From a virus, in IMG/VR virus record IMGVR_UViG_3300034198_010696, positions 1 through 23,669 of that record: a DNA stretch of 23,669 nucleotides. One strand, 5' to 3'. This document shows positions 1,785 through 23,607 of the stretch, one piece after another. Within the stretch, counting starts at the first letter, position 1, and the number at the start of each line of letters is the position of its first letter. A model generated the notes under the pieces. It was not told where the DNA came from and did no database searches. It saw only the letters and a program-made list of their open reading frames with translations. A program made the position numbers and the translations under genes.

Positions 1785-2401
1785 TGCGTATCCAGCCAGA
1801 TGTCTCCCACCTGAGGATTGGTGGGGGCAGTAGGACCGAGAACCACTTCAGGAGTGGTTGGGGTAGTCGGGTTCAACGGGGGAACCGGGAACCAAGCGTC
1901 GGGGACGTTATCCAAGTTCAACTCATCCGCAGGTTTAGTCTCAATACAGGACACACCGATAACCACATCTTCACCTTGTAGACGGCCACGAATCTGGAAG
2001 TTGCTGATCTCGTAAAACCTGCCGTCGTAGAAGATGATGTCGTTGAGTCGGTCGTCCTTCCACACAGGTGATACCTGAGTATCAGAAATCCTGTTCCCAT
2101 GGGCCTCGGTAACCGAGATTCCCTGCTCAAACAACTGCCTCGCTCCGACAGCGAAACGAAGTCGCTGGGAAGGTCGACGGCCTTCCGGTGAGTAATCCTC
2201 GGCGGCTTCCTGCTGGTCAGTCCAAAGTACTGGAACCCTTAGGGGCAGTTCGTAACGACGGTATCCCTCGTCGTACACCGAGTCATACTGGCTGTTGGTC
2301 GTGTCGAACACGTACCACAGCACGGCTTCACCAACCGTGTTCTGGTACCGAGTGAATTCTCGGGCGACGTGCCCGGCTTCACGACGAGGGTCGATGGCCA
2401 T
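1781..2401 (-). CDS. Virion protein, possible neck or connector component
   Basis: A 206-residue protein. The middle has LWYVFDTTNSQYDSVYDEGYRRY and IIFYDGRFYEISNFQIRGR, then a Pro/Thr-rich linker and a final GPTAPTNPQVGDIWLDTQ. The FYDGRFYEI strand pair and the V-G-D-I-W end are common in phage structural proteins, so a virion role is likely. A neck role is only a guess from position after the capsid and fibre genes. ATG at 2401 overlaps the previous stop (TGATG); a GTG at 2413 would add four residues. Confidence 0.55.
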   Translation of the reverse strand: MAIDPRREAGHVAREFTRYQNTVGEAVLWYVFDTTNSQYDSVYDEGYRRYELPLRVPVLWTDQQEAAEDYSPEGRRPSQRLRFAVGARQLFEQGISVTEAHGNRISDTQVSPVWKDDRLNDIIFYDGRFYEISNFQIRGRLQGEDVVIGVSCIETKPADELNLDNVPDAWFPVPPLNPTTPTTPEVVLGPTAPTNPQVGDIWLDTQ

Positions 2402-2742
2402 CAGTACATCCACCCTGTCGTGCCCACTGCTGGGTGATCAACAGTGGGGTTCTCGTCATCCACATGGTGGAGGTCGTGCCACCCATACTGCGGTTCCCCC
2501 CGTTCCTTCGGAGCAGTGGAGGTCACGATAGGAACTCTCCTACCAAGGGCGGCGTAGGCGGCGGCGGTGTGGTGCCCGTCCACAATCTCGTATTCACCGT
2601 TCTCATAGGAGGTGACCTCCACCTCGGGCACCTCCCCGTCAAGGATGTCGTGGACCTTCTCAGTGACAATGTCACTGTGAACGACGAACTGAGTGGGGGA
2701 GAGGGAGTGGTGAGGTACCAACTTGCGCTTCGTGACAGGCAT
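2401..2742 (-). CDS. ParB-like nuclease domain protein
   Basis: A 113-residue protein with the ParB/sulfiredoxin-like core: a basic N-terminus, VTEKVHDILDGE, a strand pair (VEVTSYENGEYEIVDGHH) and the signature DGHHTAAAYAALG at residues 55-67, equivalent to the DGHHR box of ParB-like domains. The Arg of that box is replaced by Thr, so nuclease or CTPase activity is uncertain. The C-terminal third is rich in His and acidic residues. ATG at 2742 has GGAGG 7 bases upstream and overlaps the previous stop (TGATG). It is coupled to the ADP-ribosyltransferase-like gene. Confidence 0.65.
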   Translation of the reverse strand: MPVTKRKLVPHHSLSPTQFVVHSDIVTEKVHDILDGEVPEVEVTSYENGEYEIVDGHHTAAAYAALGRRVPIVTSTAPKERGEPQYGWHDLHHVDDENPTVDHPAVGTTGWMY

Positions 2743-3101
2743 CACATCACCTCCCCGTTGTAATCGGCGTAACCAGCCAGCCGCTTCACAGTCATCCCAT
2801 GAGGGTCGCCCACGTAGGACTCTCCGGTATCCCAGTTGATTCGCTTCAAATCTTCTTTAGGGCTAGTTGGCTCTACCTCGTACACCGGGGAGAAGAGAGG
2901 AGGCTGTGCAGATCGCTTACCCTTGGCTGCGGAGTACCTTGCCGCACCCTCCAAGGATGTGGACCCCCAAGCAGCAGGTTGTATATTGCGCCCAAGCACC
3001 CTCTTCGGTGTAACGCCAAGAAGACCGTGCCAAGAAGGATCAACCTTTGCGCCGGGAAGGAACCAGTTTGCTGTTCCGTGGAACAGCGCCAACCGGGACA
3101 T
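2742..3101 (-). CDS. Arr-like mono-ADP-ribosyltransferase domain protein
   Basis: A 119-residue protein resembling the compact rifampin ADP-ribosyltransferase (Arr) fold: FHGTANWFLPGAKVDP (HGT at 8-10), WGSTSLEGAARYSA at 45-58, VYEVEP at 73-78, and a late GDPHGMTVKRLAGY segment. In Arr enzymes the HGT histidine and a central aromatic residue contact NAD+; here the second position appears to be Trp or Ser rather than Tyr. Activity is therefore unproven. ATG at 3101 overlaps the preceding stop (TAATG). It could modify a host target after injection or during assembly; rifampin resistance is not implied. Confidence 0.6.
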   Translation of the reverse strand: MSRLALFHGTANWFLPGAKVDPSWHGLLGVTPKRVLGRNIQPAAWGSTSLEGAARYSAAKGKRSAQPPLFSPVYEVEPTSPKEDLKRINWDTGESYVGDPHGMTVKRLAGYADYNGEVM

Positions 3102-11144: not shown

Positions 11145-11612
11145 TCAACTGCCAGAAATACGGGTGTAGACCTCCAAGAGGAGGTCCCCCATAGCGGTAT
11201 GGACTGCCCTTTCGGCAGCGGCCTCTAAGGCAGCACCTTCTTTACCGTAGAAGATGCGATCTTCACGGATTCGTTCCCTGACCTGTGCAGACAGGGCCAA
11301 CCGGACATCCCACACTCCCCGAAGGGCGGGGAACAGGCGAATAATCTCATCGCCCAACTTGTCGATGTTGGCACCAACCTCACCAAATTTTGTCGATAAC
11401 CCCACCGAATATGCGGCAGGATCGCCATTGACCGTAGGGCGCATTCCCAGACCAGCGGGAATGAAAGTGGCATCAACGATGGCGTCCGCCACTTCATCGT
11501 CGGTAGGCCATTCCCCATTCGTGTGGTACAGGGAGTACAGCGCTTTCTCCTCCTCAGTGGGGGGGTCGATGGGGTCCGGGTTCCAGTCCCGAATTTGAAT
11601 GGTCATTGACAC
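11145..11612 (-). CDS. Hypothetical protein upstream of portal
   Basis: A 155-residue protein with a Pro/Asp/Glu-rich start (WNPDPIDPPTEEEKALYSLYH) and an alpha-helical body ending AAAERAVHTAMGDLLLEVYTRISGS. No motif is recognised. It overlaps nothing but ends 3 bases before the portal start, so it is translated as part of the same unit. A portal partner or minor head protein would fit its position. GTG at 11612 has GAGGTG about 5 bases upstream; ATG at 11606 is an alternative start. Confidence 0.55.
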   Translation of the reverse strand: MSMTIQIRDWNPDPIDPPTEEEKALYSLYHTNGEWPTDDEVADAIVDATFIPAGLGMRPTVNGDPAAYSVGLSTKFGEVGANIDKLGDEIIRLFPALRGVWDVRLALSAQVRERIREDRIFYGKEGAALEAAAERAVHTAMGDLLLEVYTRISGS

Positions 11613-11622
11613 AGTCGCACCT

Positions 11623-13266
11623 CTACAAACGGAATGTCTCAGGAATGCGTTGTGGGTTCAGCGCAAGTTCCATGTTTGATTGTACATCCTGATGGATGAG
11701 CGACTTGGTACCGGCGGCAATCGCTGCCTTTCCTTGCGGGTATGCGGCCTGTATGGCTCCCCAACCCCACGCTTGCCGGATATGAGGAGTCATGTTGAAC
11801 TTGCCGTGCCCGGGGACATTGACCGAGTTATCACCGTGAGCCATGGTTTGGTGTTCCTGCGTCAGATAAGCGAGGTGGGGAGCCAACAACCCAGCGGGGG
11901 CATTCTTCGTGCCCACAAGATGGCGCATATGAGCAGGAACCACGAACCGTGCATCTGGACGAATCGGGTCATCCAGACTCTTAGCAAAGGCCGGGGAAAG
12001 ATTACTGACAGCGCGAGCATGGTGAATGTCAGAAGTCACAAATGGATTACGCATCCCGAGATCGTTGATATGACGGCGAACGTGGGCAGCAGCCTGAGGG
12101 TTCCTCTGCCAGTACGTATCACCGTAAACCTTGGCCCCAACTAGATGGCGAATTACTTCAGCATGCTCAGGAACTGAGGTGAGCGTTGTCAATCCATAGG
12201 TGAGAAGTTTCTGTTCTCCCTCATCGGACGGCTTGATGACTGAAGGGTCATTCATGATGGCCATCGACTTGTGGATAGCGGGAATACCACTTGTTCCTGC
12301 TGCACCACGAATTGCGCGTGCGGGGGCTGACCAATCTGAACCTGTTCCGTAATCAATATGGGAGGTCAAATCGCTCAGAACTCCACCGGCACCGGCACGA
12401 TGGGCGATGATAATTGCTTGGTGTGCCGGGTCCAGATCACCGAAACGGTGTGTACCGGCTTCCATCTGCTTCTTAGGAGCCAGTTCGGGGTCAATGATAC
12501 GCTTACCCCTCACCTTCTTGAGCGGCTCTCCTGTCGATGACAGCAACCCTGCTCCATCAGTATCCACGCCGTGAATTTGAGCGTTGATCATCTGGTTCAC
12601 AATTTGTGCGCCTGACTGAGACAGGCGAACACCGATGTCCCCCCGGTGGGCGTGAATAGCGGCAATTCCAGACGCTCCCTGAATTTCAACCTGAGGAGCA
12701 GCCCCTGCACTAAAGCGGGTTCCTGCCAAGATCAAATTTCTGTGCAATCCGGGGGAGTAGTCGCTGCCGTACGATTCTGTGCCCACATGCTTGTAGTTAG
12801 CATGGTGAACTGGGTAGAACTCCGGCCCGGCAGGAAGATACAGGACACCGTGGCCGGGACTCTGCTGCTCTTCAAAGTTTGTGCGGGAACGGGCAGCACG
12901 GGAAGTGGCGTGTACCAGATTAGAGAATGCCCTTGCACCCGCTTCCATACCGGTGTCAGGGCGGCTTTGAATCTCTTCCTGAAATTCTGGGGAGCGTAGG
13001 CGTTCCGCTGCTCGGGCGGCGTTTATGCGGTTTGTTTCGTTGGCATTCGGGCTATTGGCCGTCCGGTCGTAACCTGCTAGCCAATGCCCTACCAATTCGG
13101 GGAGATGATGCCCCATGAATCCGACCCGTTCCGCGGCAAATTCTTGGTGCTGAGGAGAAGCCGTAGCGAGAGTCACGGTGCGGGGAGAAGCAACCCCATG
13201 AGTATCTTCGTATTCTGACGTCCAAGCCGATAGGGCGTCGGCGGCATTACGCCGAGTCACAGCCAT
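11623..13266 (-). CDS. Large unrecognised phage protein, 547 aa
   Basis: A 547-residue protein rich in Ala, His, Gly and Arg with no hydrophobic membrane segment. Visible landmarks: HLPELVGHWLAGYDRTANS, SNLVHATSRAARSRTNFEEQQ, GVLYLPAGPEFYPVHHANYKHVG, AIHAHRGDIGVRLSQSG, YGDTYWQRNPQAAAHVRRHIND, FVTSDIHHARAVSNLS and a C-terminal GHGKFNMTPHIRQAWGWGAIQAAY. The many His residues and the VTSDIHHAR segment hint at an enzymatic or metal-binding domain, but I cannot name one. ATG at 13266 overlaps the previous stop (TAATG). Being in the head operon, it may be carried in the virion. Confidence 0.55.
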   Translation of the reverse strand: MAVTRRNAADALSAWTSEYEDTHGVASPRTVTLATASPQHQEFAAERVGFMGHHLPELVGHWLAGYDRTANSPNANETNRINAARAAERLRSPEFQEEIQSRPDTGMEAGARAFSNLVHATSRAARSRTNFEEQQSPGHGVLYLPAGPEFYPVHHANYKHVGTESYGSDYSPGLHRNLILAGTRFSAGAAPQVEIQGASGIAAIHAHRGDIGVRLSQSGAQIVNQMINAQIHGVDTDGAGLLSSTGEPLKKVRGKRIIDPELAPKKQMEAGTHRFGDLDPAHQAIIIAHRAGAGGVLSDLTSHIDYGTGSDWSAPARAIRGAAGTSGIPAIHKSMAIMNDPSVIKPSDEGEQKLLTYGLTTLTSVPEHAEVIRHLVGAKVYGDTYWQRNPQAAAHVRRHINDLGMRNPFVTSDIHHARAVSNLSPAFAKSLDDPIRPDARFVVPAHMRHLVGTKNAPAGLLAPHLAYLTQEHQTMAHGDNSVNVPGHGKFNMTPHIRQAWGWGAIQAAYPQGKAAIAAGTKSLIHQDVQSNMELALNPQRIPETFRL

Positions 13267-15308: not shown

Positions 15309-15599
15309 CTAGCACCCGATGCAGGGCGGTTCTCCTTCGTGGTGAATGGTCAACGGGGCAGGAGTCTGCCCCTCTGTGAATGCTTTGCGACGGCTAAGGA
15401 TTCCCCGCACCATTTCCATGCCCTTACGGTTGATCTCCATCTGCTCGGGCGAAAGTTGGTAATTGGGGCCTAGCGGCAACGGCTCGTCATTGACAATGCC
15501 GGGAAGTTCCATCTGCCCAGTGGGTTCAGGGTTCACCTGTTTGCGGATGCGGTTCTTGGTTATCTCGCCGCGAATGTATTCCTCACGGGATAGGTCCAT
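15309..15599 (-). CDS. Hypothetical protein, 96 aa
   Basis: A charged, Pro/Glu-rich protein: MDLSREEYIRGEITKNRIRK, then ELPGIVNDEPLPLGPNYQLSPEQMEINRKGMEMVRGILSRRK, ending HHEGEPPCIGC. The end has two Cys and two His (HH...C..C), a possible small metal site. No family is recognised. ATG at 15599 has GGAGG 4 bases upstream and overlaps the previous stop (TGATG). It directly precedes the endolysin gene, but there is no membrane segment that would make it a holin. Confidence 0.55.
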   Translation of the reverse strand: MDLSREEYIRGEITKNRIRKQVNPEPTGQMELPGIVNDEPLPLGPNYQLSPEQMEINRKGMEMVRGILSRRKAFTEGQTPAPLTIHHEGEPPCIGC

Positions 15600-16003: not shown

Positions 16004-17614
16004 CTAGCCCCTGTAGAAGGGCGAGTCGTAGACCTCCACAGTGGGGGTGGCCTCAATCTGGCTGCACATACACGCCAGCGCCAACGAGTCCACGAAGTCA
16101 TCGTGGGCTTCTCGCTCCCCCTCTGGGGCCTGCACCAGCAGGTACTGGCCTTTCATGACTTTCTCCACGTCGATCATCTGCTGCCGGAACCGCCGCCATA
16201 CCCGGGTACGGCGGGCCTTGGAATGGGCCGGGTACACGACCATGCGACGCTGAATCAGGGCGATGAGATGCTTCCACCGGTCGGCTTGATTCTTGGAGTC
16301 CGAGTTGAAGGGAATGACTTCACACCGACCGGCAAACAGCCGTTTCAAACGGTCGGCTACGGCACTACCCATGCCTTGAGCATCCACACCGATGTAGGCA
16401 ATCCAGTACTGGTCAAGGAAATCCATGATCTGGAAGTACTGCTCTTCCCACTCTGTGTTGTGGATTTCCAGCCAGTTCAGAACACGGTGTTCCCGATACC
16501 CGGCTCCATCCGGGTGGTCCCAATCCACCCAGCACACAGTTACCACCGTGGAGTCCTTGACGCGAGCCGGGTCGATTCCGACCACCACCGGGGTTCTCCA
16601 CCAGCCCTTGACCAACTGCATGGACGGGTCACCGAGATAGTCCAGTTCATCCTCGGTGATGAGCATGCCTCGTTCCAGCATCCATTTGAGGGCGTAAGAC
16701 ATCTGGAATTCTTCCGAGTCCTCACCCAGCCGCAACTTCTCCTTGGTGATGAACTGGGCGTAGTAAGGGTTGTACTTGCCGACCGTTCGGTAGTCGTACT
16801 CAAAGTGGTTAGGCCGGTTACCTCGCCCCCGGGAGGCACGACGCTTGTTCAGGTTGATGGCCTTGTAGAAATCGCCCTTGGTGTATGACGGGGTACCGAT
16901 CTTGCACATCGTTCCTGCGTAGGCAGCGAGCATCGGGTGGATGGACTTACGGACCACTTGGTCGTCGCAGTCCTGCGCCTCGTCAATCACGATGATGTGG
17001 TACGACGAACCTTCGATCTTGGCCCTAGGGCTGGCCGTCTGACGGCGGCAGAAGGACCCTGACCGCAACTTGACGATCTTGGACCGACCGTCAGGCTTCT
17101 CGTCAATTTCAGGGTCCGAGAGAATTTCAAATGCCCGGTCACTTGTAAGCCGGGTAACAATTCGCCCAAATACGATCTCACTCTGATCGTCCACGGGGGC
17201 GAACACTCCGACCCACAGACCACGCTTGAATCTCTCCAGCATGGGGTAGGACATAGCCAACTTGGGCAGCACGACCATGCACCCAGCCAGAACGGTGGCA
17301 AGAGTTTCCGATTTACCCGACTGTCGTGCCCATAGGGCGGTGATTTCCTCAGAGTCGCCAATCACCAGCGATTCAATGAGCCGGTAGGCAAGGGACCGCT
17401 GATAGGGGCGGAGTTCAAACCCGGCCAGTTCTTCGCAGAAGAAGATGATGCGCTTGCACAGTTCATCCACGAACCCTGCCATCTCAGGGTCCAATTCCAT
17501 CTCTTCACGGGAATCGGACGGCTCGTCTGAGGGCTGTTCGTCGTCAACCGCCTCGTCCCACACCGATTCTTCGGGAAATCCGAGGTCTTCAATCTCCAAG
17601 GGCACATCAACCAT
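16004..17614 (-). CDS. terL: Terminase large subunit (packaging ATPase and nuclease)
   Basis: A 536-residue motor that pumps DNA into the head and cuts it. From the ATG at 17614: Walker A-like WARQSGKSE (95-103), Walker B IIVIDEAQD (207-215), coupling motif GTPS (240-243), then an RNase H-like nuclease with VVGIDPA (Asp348), IGVDAQG (Asp411) and AHDDFVDSLALA (Asp505, Asp506, Asp509). All catalytic positions expected for this family are present. The N-terminus is acidic. A terminator hairpin at 17633-17668 just upstream supports this start over TTG at 17695, which would put the hairpin inside the gene. No small subunit is recognised nearby. Confidence 0.95.
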   Translation of the reverse strand: MVDVPLEIEDLGFPEESVWDEAVDDEQPSDEPSDSREEMELDPEMAGFVDELCKRIIFFCEELAGFELRPYQRSLAYRLIESLVIGDSEEITALWARQSGKSETLATVLAGCMVVLPKLAMSYPMLERFKRGLWVGVFAPVDDQSEIVFGRIVTRLTSDRAFEILSDPEIDEKPDGRSKIVKLRSGSFCRRQTASPRAKIEGSSYHIIVIDEAQDCDDQVVRKSIHPMLAAYAGTMCKIGTPSYTKGDFYKAINLNKRRASRGRGNRPNHFEYDYRTVGKYNPYYAQFITKEKLRLGEDSEEFQMSYALKWMLERGMLITEDELDYLGDPSMQLVKGWWRTPVVVGIDPARVKDSTVVTVCWVDWDHPDGAGYREHRVLNWLEIHNTEWEEQYFQIMDFLDQYWIAYIGVDAQGMGSAVADRLKRLFAGRCEVIPFNSDSKNQADRWKHLIALIQRRMVVYPAHSKARRTRVWRRFRQQMIDVEKVMKGQYLLVQAPEGEREAHDDFVDSLALACMCSQIEATPTVEVYDSPFYRG

Positions 17615-17632
17615 GGGTTGGGACACTACCCC

Positions 17633-17668
17633 TAAAAAAGGTTGTGGGCCGGGTTTCCCCGACCCACT
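17633..17668 (-). terminator. Intrinsic terminator upstream of terminase
   Basis: On the minus strand GTGGG-T-CGGG, loop GAAA, CCCG-G-CCCAC form a 9-pair stem with one mismatch, followed by AACCTTTTTTA. It sits 56 bases after the stop of the gene at 17723. It should end transcription of the small-gene unit, with partial read-through or a separate promoter feeding terminase. Confidence 0.75.
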
Positions 17669-17722
17669 TCCTCCCGACTCAGTCACACGTGGCAAGGCCG
17701 CATGCCCTAAGTGATAAGAAAT

Positions 17723-19113: not shown

Positions 19114-19656
19114 CTACTTTGAATCCCTTGTTCGGGACGGTGCGCGGTAACGAGGGTTGGACGGCGCACCATACTCGTCCATAGACATGCCTTTATAGCC
19201 CAATCCGTTGAGCAGCGTGTTGACTGACTTGCCCTTTGACATGGAACGGGCGAACTGTCGGAATGTCTCATAGGTAACGGGCGAGACTGCGATCTGTCCT
19301 TGCCCTCGGGGGGCCACCGAGGGCCTTGCCCAAGCCTGCGGGTCTTGGTAGATGCGCTCACCTTCTCGGGCGTACCCTGCGCCGTACACCGTGCCTGACA
19401 CATCGGTAGGGCTGGAGTGGCCGGTTCGGGCCTTCTTGTTGTTCTTCCACATCACCTGCATAGTGTCGTTTAGGTAGTCATACCGGTATTTCGACACGCG
19501 AGTGGAGTTGGGAGTTTCGATCCACGGACCGAAATCAGTGCTAACTGATTCGTAGGCAGCGGACCCACGAAAGCCTTTCGGCTGGGGGACAGAAGAATTG
19601 GCCTTCTCAATAGAACGGGCAATGGTCCCCGAGATGTTGGACTTACTCTTCGCCAT
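19114..19656 (-). CDS. KTSC-like domain protein
   Basis: A 180-residue basic protein. Residues 51-70 (STRVSKYRYDYLNDTMQVMW) and 124-154 (VSPVTYETFRQFARSMSKGK...LLNGLGY) match the two halves of a KTSC-type domain (S-T-x-V-x-x-Y-x-Y-D...M-x-V-x-W; Y-x-x-F-x-x-A-x-S-x-G-K), with a Gly/Arg-rich insertion between. The activity of KTSC domains is not well known. ATG at 19656 has no good ribosome site; an in-frame ATG at 19704 would add 16 residues and touch the start of the opposite-strand gene. Confidence 0.55.
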   Translation of the reverse strand: MAKSKSNISGTIARSIEKANSSVPQPKGFRGSAAYESVSTDFGPWIETPNSTRVSKYRYDYLNDTMQVMWKNNKKARTGHSSPTDVSGTVYGAGYAREGERIYQDPQAWARPSVAPRGQGQIAVSPVTYETFRQFARSMSKGKSVNTLLNGLGYKGMSMDEYGAPSNPRYRAPSRTRDSK

Positions 19657-19683
19657 GAAACAAAGGTACCACGCACCTTGCGC

Positions 19684-19698
19684 TTGAGGTAGCCTCAA
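19684..19698. promoter_or_regulatory. Palindrome between divergent genes, candidate operator
   Basis: TTGAGG-TAG-CCTCAA is a perfect 6-bp inverted repeat with a 3-base centre, 4 bases before the plus-strand start at 19703 and about 28 bases before the minus-strand start at 19656. A second weaker inverted repeat (AAGGT...ACCTT) lies at 19663-19679. The site could be an operator for either gene. Confidence 0.35.
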
Positions 19699-19702
19699 CG
19701 AC

Positions 19703-19963
19703 ATGGACGACTACAGAACCGCCGACTCACTGGGAGCAGGACTCACCTTGGACGCAGACCGAGAAGTCACGGTCGTGCTGATGGTGACCGTTGGGGAAGA
19801 AACCATTGCAGTGCCCCTGACGGTGGAAATGGCAGAGGACATGATCGAAAGCCTTGAAGGGCTGACGAGAGAAGCCCACTTGGTCCGTGAGGCGACACTC
19901 ACCATGCCCCCCGAATCCGCCCGGGAGTATCTGGATAACTGGAACGCTCGCCTGCGGGGCTAG
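19703..19963 (+). CDS. Small hypothetical protein, the only plus-strand gene
   Basis: An 86-residue acidic protein (MDDYRTADSLGAGLTLDADR...REYLDNWNARLRG) with a beta-rich middle (VTVVLMVTVGEETIAVPLTV) and helices after it. Amino-acid order and codon pattern look coding, whereas the opposite frame is a Ser/Thr/Val shadow. ATG at 19703 is back to back with an ATG at 19704 on the other strand; GAGG of the palindrome lies about 13 bases upstream, far for a ribosome site. The TAG overlaps the TAG of the convergent gene (CTAG). Family unknown. Confidence 0.55.
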   Translation: MDDYRTADSLGAGLTLDADREVTVVLMVTVGEETIAVPLTVEMAEDMIESLEGLTREAHLVREATLTMPPESAREYLDNWNARLRG

Positions 19964-20583
19964 CGACCACGGAGGAACTGGCGGACACGGGTACGTGCCT
20001 CCTGAACCTCCTCATGGGGTATTTCCTGCCACGGTGAATACCCACGCATAGGAACTTGATCGGCTTTAGGCCAGACCATGTTGCTGTACCGTTCTACAGG
20101 GATGACATGGCGTTGGCCATACCTACCTTCCCCTTCGGCAGTGGGGTTGGCTCTGTTGGGGACAACCAACCCCTTATCCAAGGCTCGTCGTGCTAATCGG
20201 CTGCTTTGGATGCTTAGGGATTCGTCAGGTGCCGTGGCCCCGGACAAACCCAGTCTTTCTGGCGTCCCTAACGTGAGAGCCGCCAAAGTAGGTGCGGCGT
20301 GACGAAGGTCCTCGTCAACAAACAATTGACGGAAGACGTGCGGCTTATCTGCTGACTTGCTGAGTTGAATCTTAGAAAGTCCATAGGGAACACTGGGTCC
20401 CTCGGTGCCCATAACAACATGTCGGCTCCACCGGTGTTCCGGCGTCTTGAGGCTGTCCATGTGGGGTAGGACGAAAAGTTCCGCAGAGGTGAGGTTTCCT
20501 CCCGCCTGTCTTTCTCCGCCCCTCCAGTCAGGCGAGAATAAAGTAAAGGAAGGAGTTGTGTAGGTGCGCCTGAAGTACCTCAT
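19960..20583 (-). CDS. PTLAAL-family protein, copy 1
   Basis: A 207-residue protein beginning MRYFRRTYTT. Shared core with the next gene: VPYG..K..LS, PHVFRQLFVDEDLRHAAPTLAALTL, SSRLARRALDKGLVVPNRANP and GYSPWQEIPHEEVQEARTRVRQFL. No known domain is recognised. The 54 residues that could be added upstream are not similar to the paralogue, while AGGAGG 5 bases before ATG 20583 fits well; that ATG overlaps the previous stop (ATGA). It is probably a tandem duplicate that has diverged. Function unknown. Confidence 0.6.
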   Translation of the reverse strand: MRYFRRTYTTPSFTLFSPDWRGGERQAGGNLTSAELFVLPHMDSLKTPEHRWSRHVVMGTEGPSVPYGLSKIQLSKSADKPHVFRQLFVDEDLRHAAPTLAALTLGTPERLGLSGATAPDESLSIQSSRLARRALDKGLVVPNRANPTAEGEGRYGQRHVIPVERYSNMVWPKADQVPMRGYSPWQEIPHEEVQEARTRVRQFLRGR

Positions 20584-21257
20584 TCCGACCTCCTCTGAAG
20601 GCGACTCTGGCGCATAACCTCGCGAGATTCGGGTGAGGACAATATCTGACGAACAAATGCACGTGCGGCGTGAACCTCTTCGTCTGGGACAGGACTCCAG
20701 CCAGACCACTTTCCCATCCCATAGGCGTCGGCCATGGGACTCCACACGCCCGACGAGGCCGTGTCACTCAGCACATGCTCCAACTTTTCGGGGGTCAGCA
20801 CCCGTTCGTAGGAGGAACGGCCGTCGGGAGCGGTGAAATTGGTCTGAGTGGCTTTAGGGTTATAGCGGTTTGGGGTGACAAGACCCAAACTGAGGGCCTT
20901 CGTAGAAAGCGAACTGCTGTGGGCCGAAAGGTCACTTGAAGGGACTACAAAGTGGTCAGCAGGAACACTGCGGAGTGTAAGAGCAGCGAGCGTTGGGGCG
21001 GCGTTCTGAAGTGAATGATCAACATTCAGTGAACTAAACATGTGCGGGTTCTGCTCAGAACCACCCTTCCCCTCCAAAGGATGGTCTTGGCTGAGAGACA
21101 TCATTGAGTCCCCATAGGGGACTAAGTCACCGCCCCAGTGACTACGGGCCGCAGGGCTGATCTCGGCCGGTGCGTTGCCGATCACCATGAAATGTTCTCC
21201 GGTGTGGGCTGCTCCTTGCCACGTAGTCAGGTAATGGGACCTACGGAAGTACCTCAT
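20580..21257 (-). CDS. PTLAAL-family protein, copy 2
   Basis: A 225-residue protein beginning MRYFRRSHYL, the same six residues as copy 1. It shares LVPYGDSMMSLS, PHMFSSLNVDHSLQNAAPTLAALTL, SSSLSTKALSLGLVTPNRYNP and WSPVPDEEVHAARAFVRQIL in the same order. The C-terminal tail (SPESREVMRQSRLQRRSE) is extra. ATG at 21257 overlaps the previous stop (ATGA); a GTG at 21266 is less likely because copy 1 also starts at MRYFRR. No enzyme motif is visible. Two tandem copies suggest selection for diversity. Confidence 0.6.
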   Translation of the reverse strand: MRYFRRSHYLTTWQGAAHTGEHFMVIGNAPAEISPAARSHWGGDLVPYGDSMMSLSQDHPLEGKGGSEQNPHMFSSLNVDHSLQNAAPTLAALTLRSVPADHFVVPSSDLSAHSSSLSTKALSLGLVTPNRYNPKATQTNFTAPDGRSSYERVLTPEKLEHVLSDTASSGVWSPMADAYGMGKWSGWSPVPDEEVHAARAFVRQILSSPESREVMRQSRLQRRSE

Positions 21258-21466
21258 CTTCGCCACACCGAGGGTGCGTGATTCGATTCTACCGCCAGAC
21301 GATGCTCATGGTCTTCATAGATACGGACCACGAACAGGCAGGGGTCGCTCTCTTCAAACTCCTCGTCTTCGTCAGCGGTCGTGGGGTAGCCGTCGTGGGT
21401 GATGCAAACCGACGGGCCGATGAACCCCATGTCCAGCCCGTACTGGTACCACTCGTCCTTTGTCAT
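21254..21466 (-). CDS. Small conserved phage protein, 70 aa (THDG)
   Basis: Reads MTKDEWYQYGLDMGFIGPSV then CITHDGYPTTADEDEEFEESDPCLFVVRIYED. The pattern of a helix, F-x-x-x-x-C-x-T-H-D-G-x-P, an acidic stretch and C-[LV]-x-V-V-R-[IV]-Y resembles small proteins common in actinobacteriophages. Two Cys and one His may bind a metal. ATG at 21466 has a strong GGAGGA 8 bases upstream; longer starts overlap the preceding gene. It sits between PTLAAL copy 2 and an unrecognised 253-residue gene. Confidence 0.6.
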   Translation of the reverse strand: MTKDEWYQYGLDMGFIGPSVCITHDGYPTTADEDEEFEESDPCLFVVRIYEDHEHRLAVESNHAPSVWRR

Positions 21467-21470
21467 GTAA

Positions 21471-22232
21471 TTAGTCCTCCAAGAAACGGAACCCGCCAGT
21501 TCCTGTGTGAAACGCTCCCATGCGGGAAACTCGCTCCGCATCAGAAAGTGACCAGCGGTTATCTGATGGTCGCCTTGCGGTGAGGCGAAGGGGGTTCGTT
21601 TTTACAAGGATTTCTTCCTTGCCAAGACCACTGTCTCTGTTGATGTCTGTGCGGGTACGCAGTCGGGCGCTGTTATCGGAAATGTCCTCAGCCGACGGGG
21701 GGTGATCATTCTGGTACCGCTGCATTTCCCTAAACATAGTTTCAGAAGGAACATTTTCGTTCTTGTGGAAGAGGTGCCATCCGGCCCCCCGTTGCACGGC
21801 TGACCGAGGCGTGGAGTTGGCAATCACCCGACGTGGGCCGGGACCGGGATGGAGGCCATCCACTACTGTTGAAGACCAGTTATCCATTGGCGCGGCAATA
21901 GTCCCGAACTGAAGCCCAAGAGTGTGCCACGTATCCCCATCAAGGCGTCTTGGATCGTCAGAAGAGGGATGGAAGGTGCGCGCGGTTAGATCGGTGAGAT
22001 TTCCACGCTCATCGGGTAGAAGTGCTCTCACCCTAAAATCTCCGGGGGTTTCGTGCGCTGCGGGGCTAGCGAAGATAGTCGGAACGCCCGGAGACTTCGG
22101 CCGACGAACTCCCGGCCGACCCCAGCCGAATGTGACCTCACGTGGGCCAATGCCCAAGTCCATCTTCGCCCTAATACCCTCCAGACCCTTCCCGATGGTG
22201 TCAGCCCAGTATCCAGTCGATTCCTCAGGCAT
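21471..22232 (-). CDS. Unrecognised 253-aa protein in accessory block
   Basis: Visible segments: WADTIGKGLEGIRAKMDLGIGPREV, WHTLGLQFGTIAAPMDNWSS, GAGWHLFHKNENVPSETMFREMQRY, SGLGKEEILVKTNPLRL, MGAFHTGTGGFRFLED. The LQFGTIAAP segment loosely recalls the H-x-G-T strand seen in ADP-ribosyltransferase-like phage proteins, but the rest does not settle it. It shares no clear PTLAAL core. ATG at 22232 overlaps the previous stop (TAATG), so it is coupled to copy 3. Confidence 0.5.
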   Translation of the reverse strand: MPEESTGYWADTIGKGLEGIRAKMDLGIGPREVTFGWGRPGVRRPKSPGVPTIFASPAAHETPGDFRVRALLPDERGNLTDLTARTFHPSSDDPRRLDGDTWHTLGLQFGTIAAPMDNWSSTVVDGLHPGPGPRRVIANSTPRSAVQRGAGWHLFHKNENVPSETMFREMQRYQNDHPPSAEDISDNSARLRTRTDINRDSGLGKEEILVKTNPLRLTARRPSDNRWSLSDAERVSRMGAFHTGTGGFRFLED

Positions 22233-23017
22233 TAGAACAACCTCAACTGCTCATGGCCGTCATGGAATGAACGGCGGCGGCTCGTAGCGTTGAGACTAGT
22301 GGGAAAAGCGTTCTCAAGGGCGTCTTCCTGCGCCCTGCCGATTTCTTCGTCAGAGTACGAACGGCCTTTGAGATCAAGGTCACCGCCAGCAAGTACATTA
22401 GGGTCAGGGCGGGCCGAACTCATCTCGTCCATGATCTTTCGGCCAATGTACAATCCATCACCGCTACCGGGTTCTGCACTTCCGATGGAGTTGAATTGTT
22501 GGTTCAGCGGAACCGTGTGCGGCATGTCCCGGTGGGCTAGCGCAGCCAAGGTGGGGCCAACATGCTCCATGTTCAGGTCAACACTGGCTTGGGTCACCCT
22601 GCCCGGAACGTGAGTGAACAACTCGGTAGGCGTATTTTCGTACCGAACGGCAGAACCACCCCGAGAGGCGTATGGGTAGGAAAAAATCGGTTCTGCTGAC
22701 ATTGCCCCGGTGGAATCAGCAGGTGTCCACTCCAAAGCGCGATCTTCGGAAAAGTTCGGCAATTCCATCGGCTCATGCACGTTCAGCGTGGCGTACCGAG
22801 TAAGCCCGCCGTTGCTGTCAATCCTGTCGGAGTCGTAATCAACGTCAAAATCCGGGTGCTCAGTAGCGGAATAGCGAACTTCAGCGGGGTAAGCGTGGCC
22901 GAGAGTGCCCGAATAAGGGTCGTCCTCAGGCGTGATCCTTATACTTGGTGTGAAGGAACTCATCCGCTGCCGAGCAAACTGGTCGCCATCTCCGCTGCTG
23001 CGTTGTCCTGATCTCAT
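22232..23017 (-). CDS. PTLAAL-family protein, copy 3 (diverged)
   Basis: A 261-residue protein with SVDLNMEHVGPTLAALAHRDMP in the middle, matching the core of copies 1 and 2, and SYSDEEIGRAQEDALENAF near the end, like the DEEV..AR segment of the others. The N-terminal half (SSFTPSIRITPEDDPYSG, DFDVDYDSDRID) is different and acidic. It ends HEQLRLF, close to the bacterial sliding-clamp binding motif QLxLF. ATG at 23017 has no good ribosome site; ATG at 22963 is an alternative start. Function unknown. Confidence 0.55.
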   Translation of the reverse strand: MRSGQRSSGDGDQFARQRMSSFTPSIRITPEDDPYSGTLGHAYPAEVRYSATEHPDFDVDYDSDRIDSNGGLTRYATLNVHEPMELPNFSEDRALEWTPADSTGAMSAEPIFSYPYASRGGSAVRYENTPTELFTHVPGRVTQASVDLNMEHVGPTLAALAHRDMPHTVPLNQQFNSIGSAEPGSGDGLYIGRKIMDEMSSARPDPNVLAGGDLDLKGRSYSDEEIGRAQEDALENAFPTSLNATSRRRSFHDGHEQLRLF

Positions 23018-23055: not shown

Positions 23056-23607
23056 TTACAGGTCCAAATCCAGCGTCAACTGCTCGGGCTTGCGCTGGCG
23101 ACGCCGCCGCTCCTTCGGAGGTGGAGCGGGTGATCCTTCCACGAATCGTGTCCTCCCAGACTGACCGCCTTCTTCTGCAATTTCACGGGCATCGGCAGCA
23201 ACGAGCGAGGCGTAGAAATCGCCATGTTCCCTGTCAGTAGGTCGTGCGGATTTCGGGATGTGCCCGCCAGTGGCCTTGGCAAAGGCATATCCAGCACGAC
23301 TCAATGCCCCGGAATGGGCAAGAACGAAGCCCGGACCTATTTCCCGGCTGGCAATACGGTGGAGTTCTGAGCCGATGCCCATCCGTTGGTACGGGCGTTC
23401 CACACTGGCGGCGGTGATACGCGGCAAGGCTGTGCTGACCATCGTCCCAGCGGTTTCGTCAATATCTGCCCATGCCGCTGGCCCGTGGAACGTGATCGCC
23501 CCGACTGGATTCCAGTTTCCCGCATGGTCTTGTGCATGTGCGCGAACAGCACCAAGACTGCCGAAATGCCCTGCGGGCGTGTAGGAGAATCGGATAGGTG
23601 GCCTCAT
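23056..23607 (-). CDS. GNAT-family N-acetyltransferase-like protein
   Basis: A 183-residue protein with a GNAT pattern: VGAITFHG and WADIDETAG as first strands, ITAASVERPYQRMGIGSELHRIASREI at 64-90 with the acetyl-CoA loop QRMGIGS (74-80), and FVLAHSGALSRAGYAFAKATGG as the last conserved helix. GNAT enzymes move acetyl from acetyl-CoA to an amine; the substrate is not predictable. The tail is very basic and ends EQLTLDLDL. ATG at 23607 has AGGAGA about 10 bases upstream. It leads the accessory block and could modify host or phage proteins. Confidence 0.7.
   Translation of the reverse strand: MRPPIRFSYTPAGHFGSLGAVRAHAQDHAGNWNPVGAITFHGPAAWADIDETAGTMVSTALPRITAASVERPYQRMGIGSELHRIASREIGPGFVLAHSGALSRAGYAFAKATGGHIPKSARPTDREHGDFYASLVAADAREIAEEGGQSGRTRFVEGSPAPPPKERRRRQRKPEQLTLDLDL

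Follow-up and report, generated by a model that had tools for sequence, protein, structure and literature searches.

A recurring family of predicted phage proteins, previously unnamed, and a terminal tag shared by many of its members with unrelated late-strand neighbours

Three neighbouring genes in a virus record encode proteins with the short core PTLAAL in common, which raises the question of whether they represent one protein family and what such a family might do. The window, meaning the whole stretch of DNA that was analysed, is a record of 23,669 bases in which the terminase, portal, major capsid and tail genes are all encoded on the minus strand. Its terminase and that of Streptomyces phages such as BRock share 48% identity, which makes an actinobacterial host likely. 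The three PTLAAL copies lie upstream of the terminase gene and on the same strand. Gene calls throughout were mechanical open reading frames (ORFs), and the three ORFs and their cores (APTLAAL in copies 1 and 2, GPTLAAL in copy 3), which the first-pass annotation had described, were confirmed on the minus strand at the positions given in Table 1. The region upstream of the terminase large subunit gene (TerL) also contains a conserved protein (19114–19704, minus strand) with homologues in more than 30 loci and a weak KTSC match below the cut-off. An 86-aa ORF on the opposite strand (19703–19963, plus), convergent with copy 1, resembles a real protein and had no family match. A tRNA-SeC called by ARAGORN at 11517–11601 (plus) within a minus-strand gene is probably spurious.

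Table 1. Features of the window, with positions counted from its first base
Feature	Position	Strand	Remarks
ParB-like protein	2401..2745	-	weak PF08857 match, E 0.0025, below cut-off; N-terminal tag-like SLSPTQF
96-aa protein between TerL and portal	15309..15599	-	internal QMELPGI (15496-15515), of the tag motif class
Terminase large subunit (TerL)	16004..17695	-	anchor for finding related phages
PTLAAL copy 1, 207 aa	19960..20583	-	MRYFRR start; without terminal tag
APTLAAL core of copy 1	20275..20295	-	placed by residue numbering
PTLAAL copy 2, 225 aa	20580..21257	-	4-base overlap with copy 1 start; without terminal tag
APTLAAL core of copy 2	20979..20999	-	placed by residue numbering
Unknown protein, 95 aa	21254..21541	-	PTLAAL block; homologues in L023 and L005
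Unknown protein, 253 aa	21471..22232	-	PTLAAL block; homologue in L007, E 9.5e-36
PTLAAL copy 3, 261 aa	22232..23017	-	diverged after core; C-terminal EQLRLF tag
C-terminal tag EQLRLF of copy 3	22235..22252	-	
GPTLAAL core of copy 3	22538..22558	-	placed by pairwise alignments with copies 1 and 2
GNAT-like protein, 183 aa (YQRMGIGSEL, HSGALSRAGYAFAKATGG)	23056..23607	-	PTLAAL block; C-terminal EQLTLDLDL
C-terminal tag EQLTLDLDL of GNAT-like protein	23059..23085	-	

Copies 1 and 2 aligned end to end with 34% identity (BLASTP, E 1e-22) and, judged from their sequences, are clear homologues. In the end DEEV..AR..VRQ that had been reported for both, copy 1 reads HEEV and not DEEV. BLASTP aligned copy 3 with copies 1 and 2 over no more than 18–29 aa at the core (E 0.002 and 8e-4), so that from the window alone the membership of copy 3 was open. 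The final profile used in our family search contained the window copies and other seed members, whose own E-values in that search are circular, and the clean membership test was therefore a leave-out profile of 19 members, all from outside the window. This profile found copy 2 with E 1.2e-22, copy 1 with E 8.4e-22 and copy 3 with E 2e-9, and none of the 900 shuffled and 3 reversed decoys scored below E 3. The match on copy 3 extended over approximately 100 residues (64–167), beyond the short PTLAAL stretch, and therefore places the N-terminal half of copy 3 in the family. This half retains PDF...PTELFT.VP, an element that also occurs in L095-type members and was lost from copies 1 and 2. The first-pass annotation was thus mistaken in regarding the N-terminal half of copy 3 as new; the diverged part is the half after the core. 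By these profile matches copy 3 truly belongs to the family despite its divergence, and the common ancestry proposed for the three copies is borne out.

Related phages were gathered by TerL, with 78 contigs from a first scan and 80 from a second scan that partly overlapped it. An iterated profile seeded by copies 1 and 2 detected relatives first in records G003, G004 and G018, and next matched 9 of 31 further records. After additional scans, the family was found in 19 of the 55 related records searched, with at most four copies per record; since these records are fragments, absences carry little weight. The presence of three copies in the window, three to four in G003, G018 and G062 and one to two in the other records supports the local expansion that had been suggested. 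A weak match in L098 was set aside as a probable chance hit. No match to the family was detected in Pfam, PHROGs, NCBIfam, PADLOC or PDB sequences. The named phages tried likewise gave none with copy 2, copy 3 or two relatives as query, and the family can rightly be called unrecognised. Pattern-based scans with copies 1 and 2 found no relative, and TerL anchoring succeeded instead. No family member was detected when bacterial and archaeal genomes were scanned with one relative as query, and BRock has neither the PTLAAL family nor either of the two DNA motif patterns. The predicted PTLAAL proteins make up one previously unnamed phage family, found repeatedly and frequently in multiple copies among related uncultured phages.

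The family alignment starts with N-terminal MxRYxR and an often kept PTELFxxxP, followed by the core A-H-P-x-M-R-x-x-x-P-T-L and, after it, by LSxxSSRLAxxGxxxGL, the C-terminal helix V..A+..LR..L and then a linker that varies. Each member has a single domain in a length of 178–318 aa, and none joins two or more effector domains in one polypeptide. AlphaFold models were obtained for copy 2 (pLDDT 69.6, pTM 0.68, 12 sequences) and for the relative L193:10001-10657 (pLDDT 87.5, pTM 0.78, 22 sequences), and the order of elements, the feature that was compared, was similar in the two. The PTLAAL body would be a compact mixed alpha/beta domain of approximately 180–200 residues, behind which there is usually a flexible tail that carries a short tag at its end. 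The fold search with the L193 model gave no significant PDB match. The copy 2 model matched A0A6J5QYR8 (E 4.6e-7) and A0A6J5QTJ8 (E 1.4e-4) in BFVD, uncharacterised proteins of 223–225 aa from uncultured Caudovirales phages, and their likeness to copy 2 is structural.

The body could conceivably be a degenerate GNAT domain that may bind a partner rather than catalyse, with the PTLAAL loop as the acetyl-CoA loop (RxGIAT changed to RxxxPT) and LSxxSSRLAxxG as the following helix, a reading that we consider doubtful and that is compatible with either docking role of the tag discussed below. A strand, the PTLAAL helix, a short strand and a helix follow in the same order in both models, the PTLAAL and GNAT families were placed in the same register by hhalign, and the ESCO1 and xEco2 GNATs were among the weak PDB matches. 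However, the hhalign E-value was only 0.051 with a probability of 1%, neither fold search gave a significant PDB match, and a Pfam GNAT match was detected in none of 22 members. The Q/RxxGxG/A acetyl-CoA loop is absent from the family alignment, which has RxxxPTLxA or similar instead. With no Pfam GNAT match and this hhalign E-value, GNAT membership was rejected at the sequence level. The GNAT acetyltransferases of the same phages (window 23056–23607 and L095:2745-3095) possibly share the order of elements and the register with the PTLAAL body, but show no significant match to the family in sequence or structure.

Two-thirds of the PTLAAL members, among them copy 3, have a short tag at their end (EQLRLF, EQLTLPGI, QPQLPGMEDK). 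Most relatives end in EQ[LM]xLPG[IM], QPQLPGMEDK or similar; copies 1 and 2 lack such an ending, as do the L007 copy and two of the four from G003. The motif also occurs in unrelated proteins encoded nearby in these phages, either at the C-terminus or, as A.E.LSxxQF, at the N-terminus. The motif Q[LM]x[LMF](F|P[GF]|[DGEP][LF]) was counted in 1581 proteins (60% non-redundant), whose interiors served as one control; shuffled tails and unused frames were others. At the C-terminus it was seen 19 times against 0.37 expected per 5-residue bin from interiors, an approximately 50-fold enrichment which, like the other ratios, is large but not exact because the regular expressions were set after examples had been seen and homologues remain, related proteins not being independent counts. 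Near the N-terminus there were 7 occurrences at residues 5–9 and 10 at residues 10–14, against the same expectation of 0.37 per bin. The C-terminal carriers belonged to 8 unrelated clusters (18 seen, 0.75 expected from shuffles). In loci spanning the early–late junction, tags were present on 40 of the 126 proteins encoded on the late (+) side and on 2 of the 80 from the early (-) strand (Fisher p 3.8e-8). The tag, kept at the end of variable linkers in several families, is enriched at protein termini and restricted to the late-side block.

The PTLAAL genes sit in a single late-strand block of small accessory proteins, comprising putative GNAT, ADP-ribosyltransferase, ParB-like and zincin-like proteins along with unknowns, and many proteins of this block bear a related tag at one end. 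Pfam matched tagged neighbours to Arr-ms (E 1.5e-6) and GNAT (E 1.4e-11), and tagged proteins had below-cut-off matches to ART-PolyVal, M43-like, ParBc_2 and DUF7178. Homologues of the GNAT-like protein of the window end in EQLRLDL (L007) and EQLELPF (L005). A tagged family with the motif AVHDVFGHA shares 40% identity across 190 aa with gp205 of Rhodococcus phage E3, in which the AVHDVFGHA domain is fused to DUF7178 and whose label "structural protein" is the annotation of its record; gp205 would combine in one polypeptide what the clade of the window encodes as separate proteins. Since most PTLAAL members and many unrelated neighbouring enzymes have the same terminal tag, our data suggest that members and tagged enzymes act as one effector set with a common docking or packaging signal. 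An anti-host role of the family is plausible from this tag and from the context of ADP-ribosyltransferase, GNAT, ParB-like and zincin-like neighbours.

Several further proteins of these loci were recorded. L076:495-821 matches Arr-ms at 1.5e-6, and in the window a 119-aa protein (2742–3101, minus) with LFHGTANWFLPGAKVDP and PVYEVEPTSP recalls Arr-type ADP-ribosyltransferases and had no Pfam match. E3 gp205 and gp206 correspond to L204:5653-8229 and L204:8229-9488, the latter matching GNAT weakly. Near the portal, a 547-aa protein (window 11623–13266, minus) shows weak kinship (E 5e-4) to a tagged DUF7178-like family of 440–520 aa in the relatives. For these tagged 440–520 aa proteins a glycosylase-like reading was dropped because the DUF7178 match reached only E 0.019. 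Two small proteins just upstream of TerL, L141:1306-1593 and L049:9695-9898, end in NPDQLSLF and SENQLTLF, an exact form of the sliding-clamp motif.

In the BRock-like clade, which is large and mostly metagenomic, we see a slightly less than even prospect that a single portable terminal tag (N-terminal A.E.LSxxQF, C-terminal EQ[LM]xLF or EQ[LM]xLPG[IM]) makes a dozen unrelated small domains, PTLAAL included, into one co-delivered or co-localised arsenal; such an arsenal would, at the same level of confidence, amount to polyvalent proteins taken apart and rejoined via a docking signal. Somewhat more tentatively, the accessory set would be a separate-protein counterpart of the polyvalent proteins of other actinophages. 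Its proteins would be synthesised late, collected by the tag as the virion assembles and carried into the next host together with the DNA, where they would target host proteins at an early stage of that infection; the PTLAAL body would serve to bind or inhibit. Late expression (from strand only), packaging, delivery and the host target are the parts of this scheme that we infer. A link to the virion is supported by the homology of the tagged AVHDVFGHA family to E3 gp205, annotated as structural, and T4 internal proteins are targeted to the head by an N-terminal sequence of approximately 10 residues (PMC7697877). Against packaging, the members listed above are untagged, and the likeness of the tag to the bacterial clamp-binding consensus would point to a different target.

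That other target would be the host sliding clamp (DnaN), to which carriers, PTLAAL copies included, would bind by the tag and so be tethered to the host replisome, inhibiting, modifying or redirecting replication. C-terminal QLxLF is the clamp-binding consensus (PMC4549789), Streptomyces NucS has a C-terminal KLRLF (PMC11109965) close to the QLRLF of copy 3, and QLxLF, QLxLDL and QLxLPF replace one another among the GNAT orthologues. No phage-encoded clamp of the bacterial type (PF02767) was detected in 22 records, therefore the clamp would be that of the host. However, tags are nearly absent (2 of 80) from the early strand, which encodes a helicase-like gene, the domains of the carriers are not replication enzymes, and many tags fit the consensus poorly, including N-terminal A.E.LS..QF without the LF part and C-terminal LPG[IM]. 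We judge clamp docking, for which the tag sequence is a good argument, rather unlikely, and the parallels with the zincin and ParB-like domains of polyvalent proteins, together with the homology to E3 gp205, lead us to favour the virion-delivered arsenal over it. Accessory regions of phages are mosaic, and the block could also be an ordinary assembly of fast-turnover genes of unrelated function, in which the tag marks late proteins in general. This would suit the untagged copies, but it fits poorly with the position of the tag, its enrichment, its restriction to one block and the fact that several families keep it at the end of linkers that vary, and we consider this reading improbable.

If the virion-delivered arsenal is correct, PTLAAL would be a phage effector family not described before, for which there is a confident model but no known fold match, and the tag would be a short signature for spotting effectors in phages where unknown genes abound. 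Direct tests could then ask whether one docking partner, be it the virion interior or the host sliding clamp, serves a dozen unrelated phage proteins.

Similarities to known systems can be recognised. As in clamp-binding proteins (PMC4549789) and the actinobacterial NucS with its KLRLF (PMC11109965), a peptide of the QLxLF type closes copy 3, there (EQLRLF) at a flexible terminus, and several of its neighbours, whereas copies 1 and 2 have none. Many tags of the clade deviate from that form (LPG[IM], LSxxQF), the carriers are not replication or repair enzymes, and binding is a prediction. As in the internal head proteins of T4 (PMC7697877), different proteins with variable gene content carry a common terminal sequence, of approximately 10 residues in T4, and a terminal tag shared across unrelated proteins is found in the clade of the window; here, however, it is also C-terminal, and the likeness is one of arrangement, seen in the genes alone. 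The polyvalent proteins of phages and conjugative elements, in which zincin and ParB-like domains have been described (Iyer et al. 2017, PMC5512222), are thought to be delivered with the genome and have an overlapping repertoire of zincin peptidase, ParB-like and effector enzymes. The PTLAAL domain differs in matching no library model. The polyvalent domains are fused in one long polypeptide, whereas the clade of the window has separate small proteins with a common short terminal tag.
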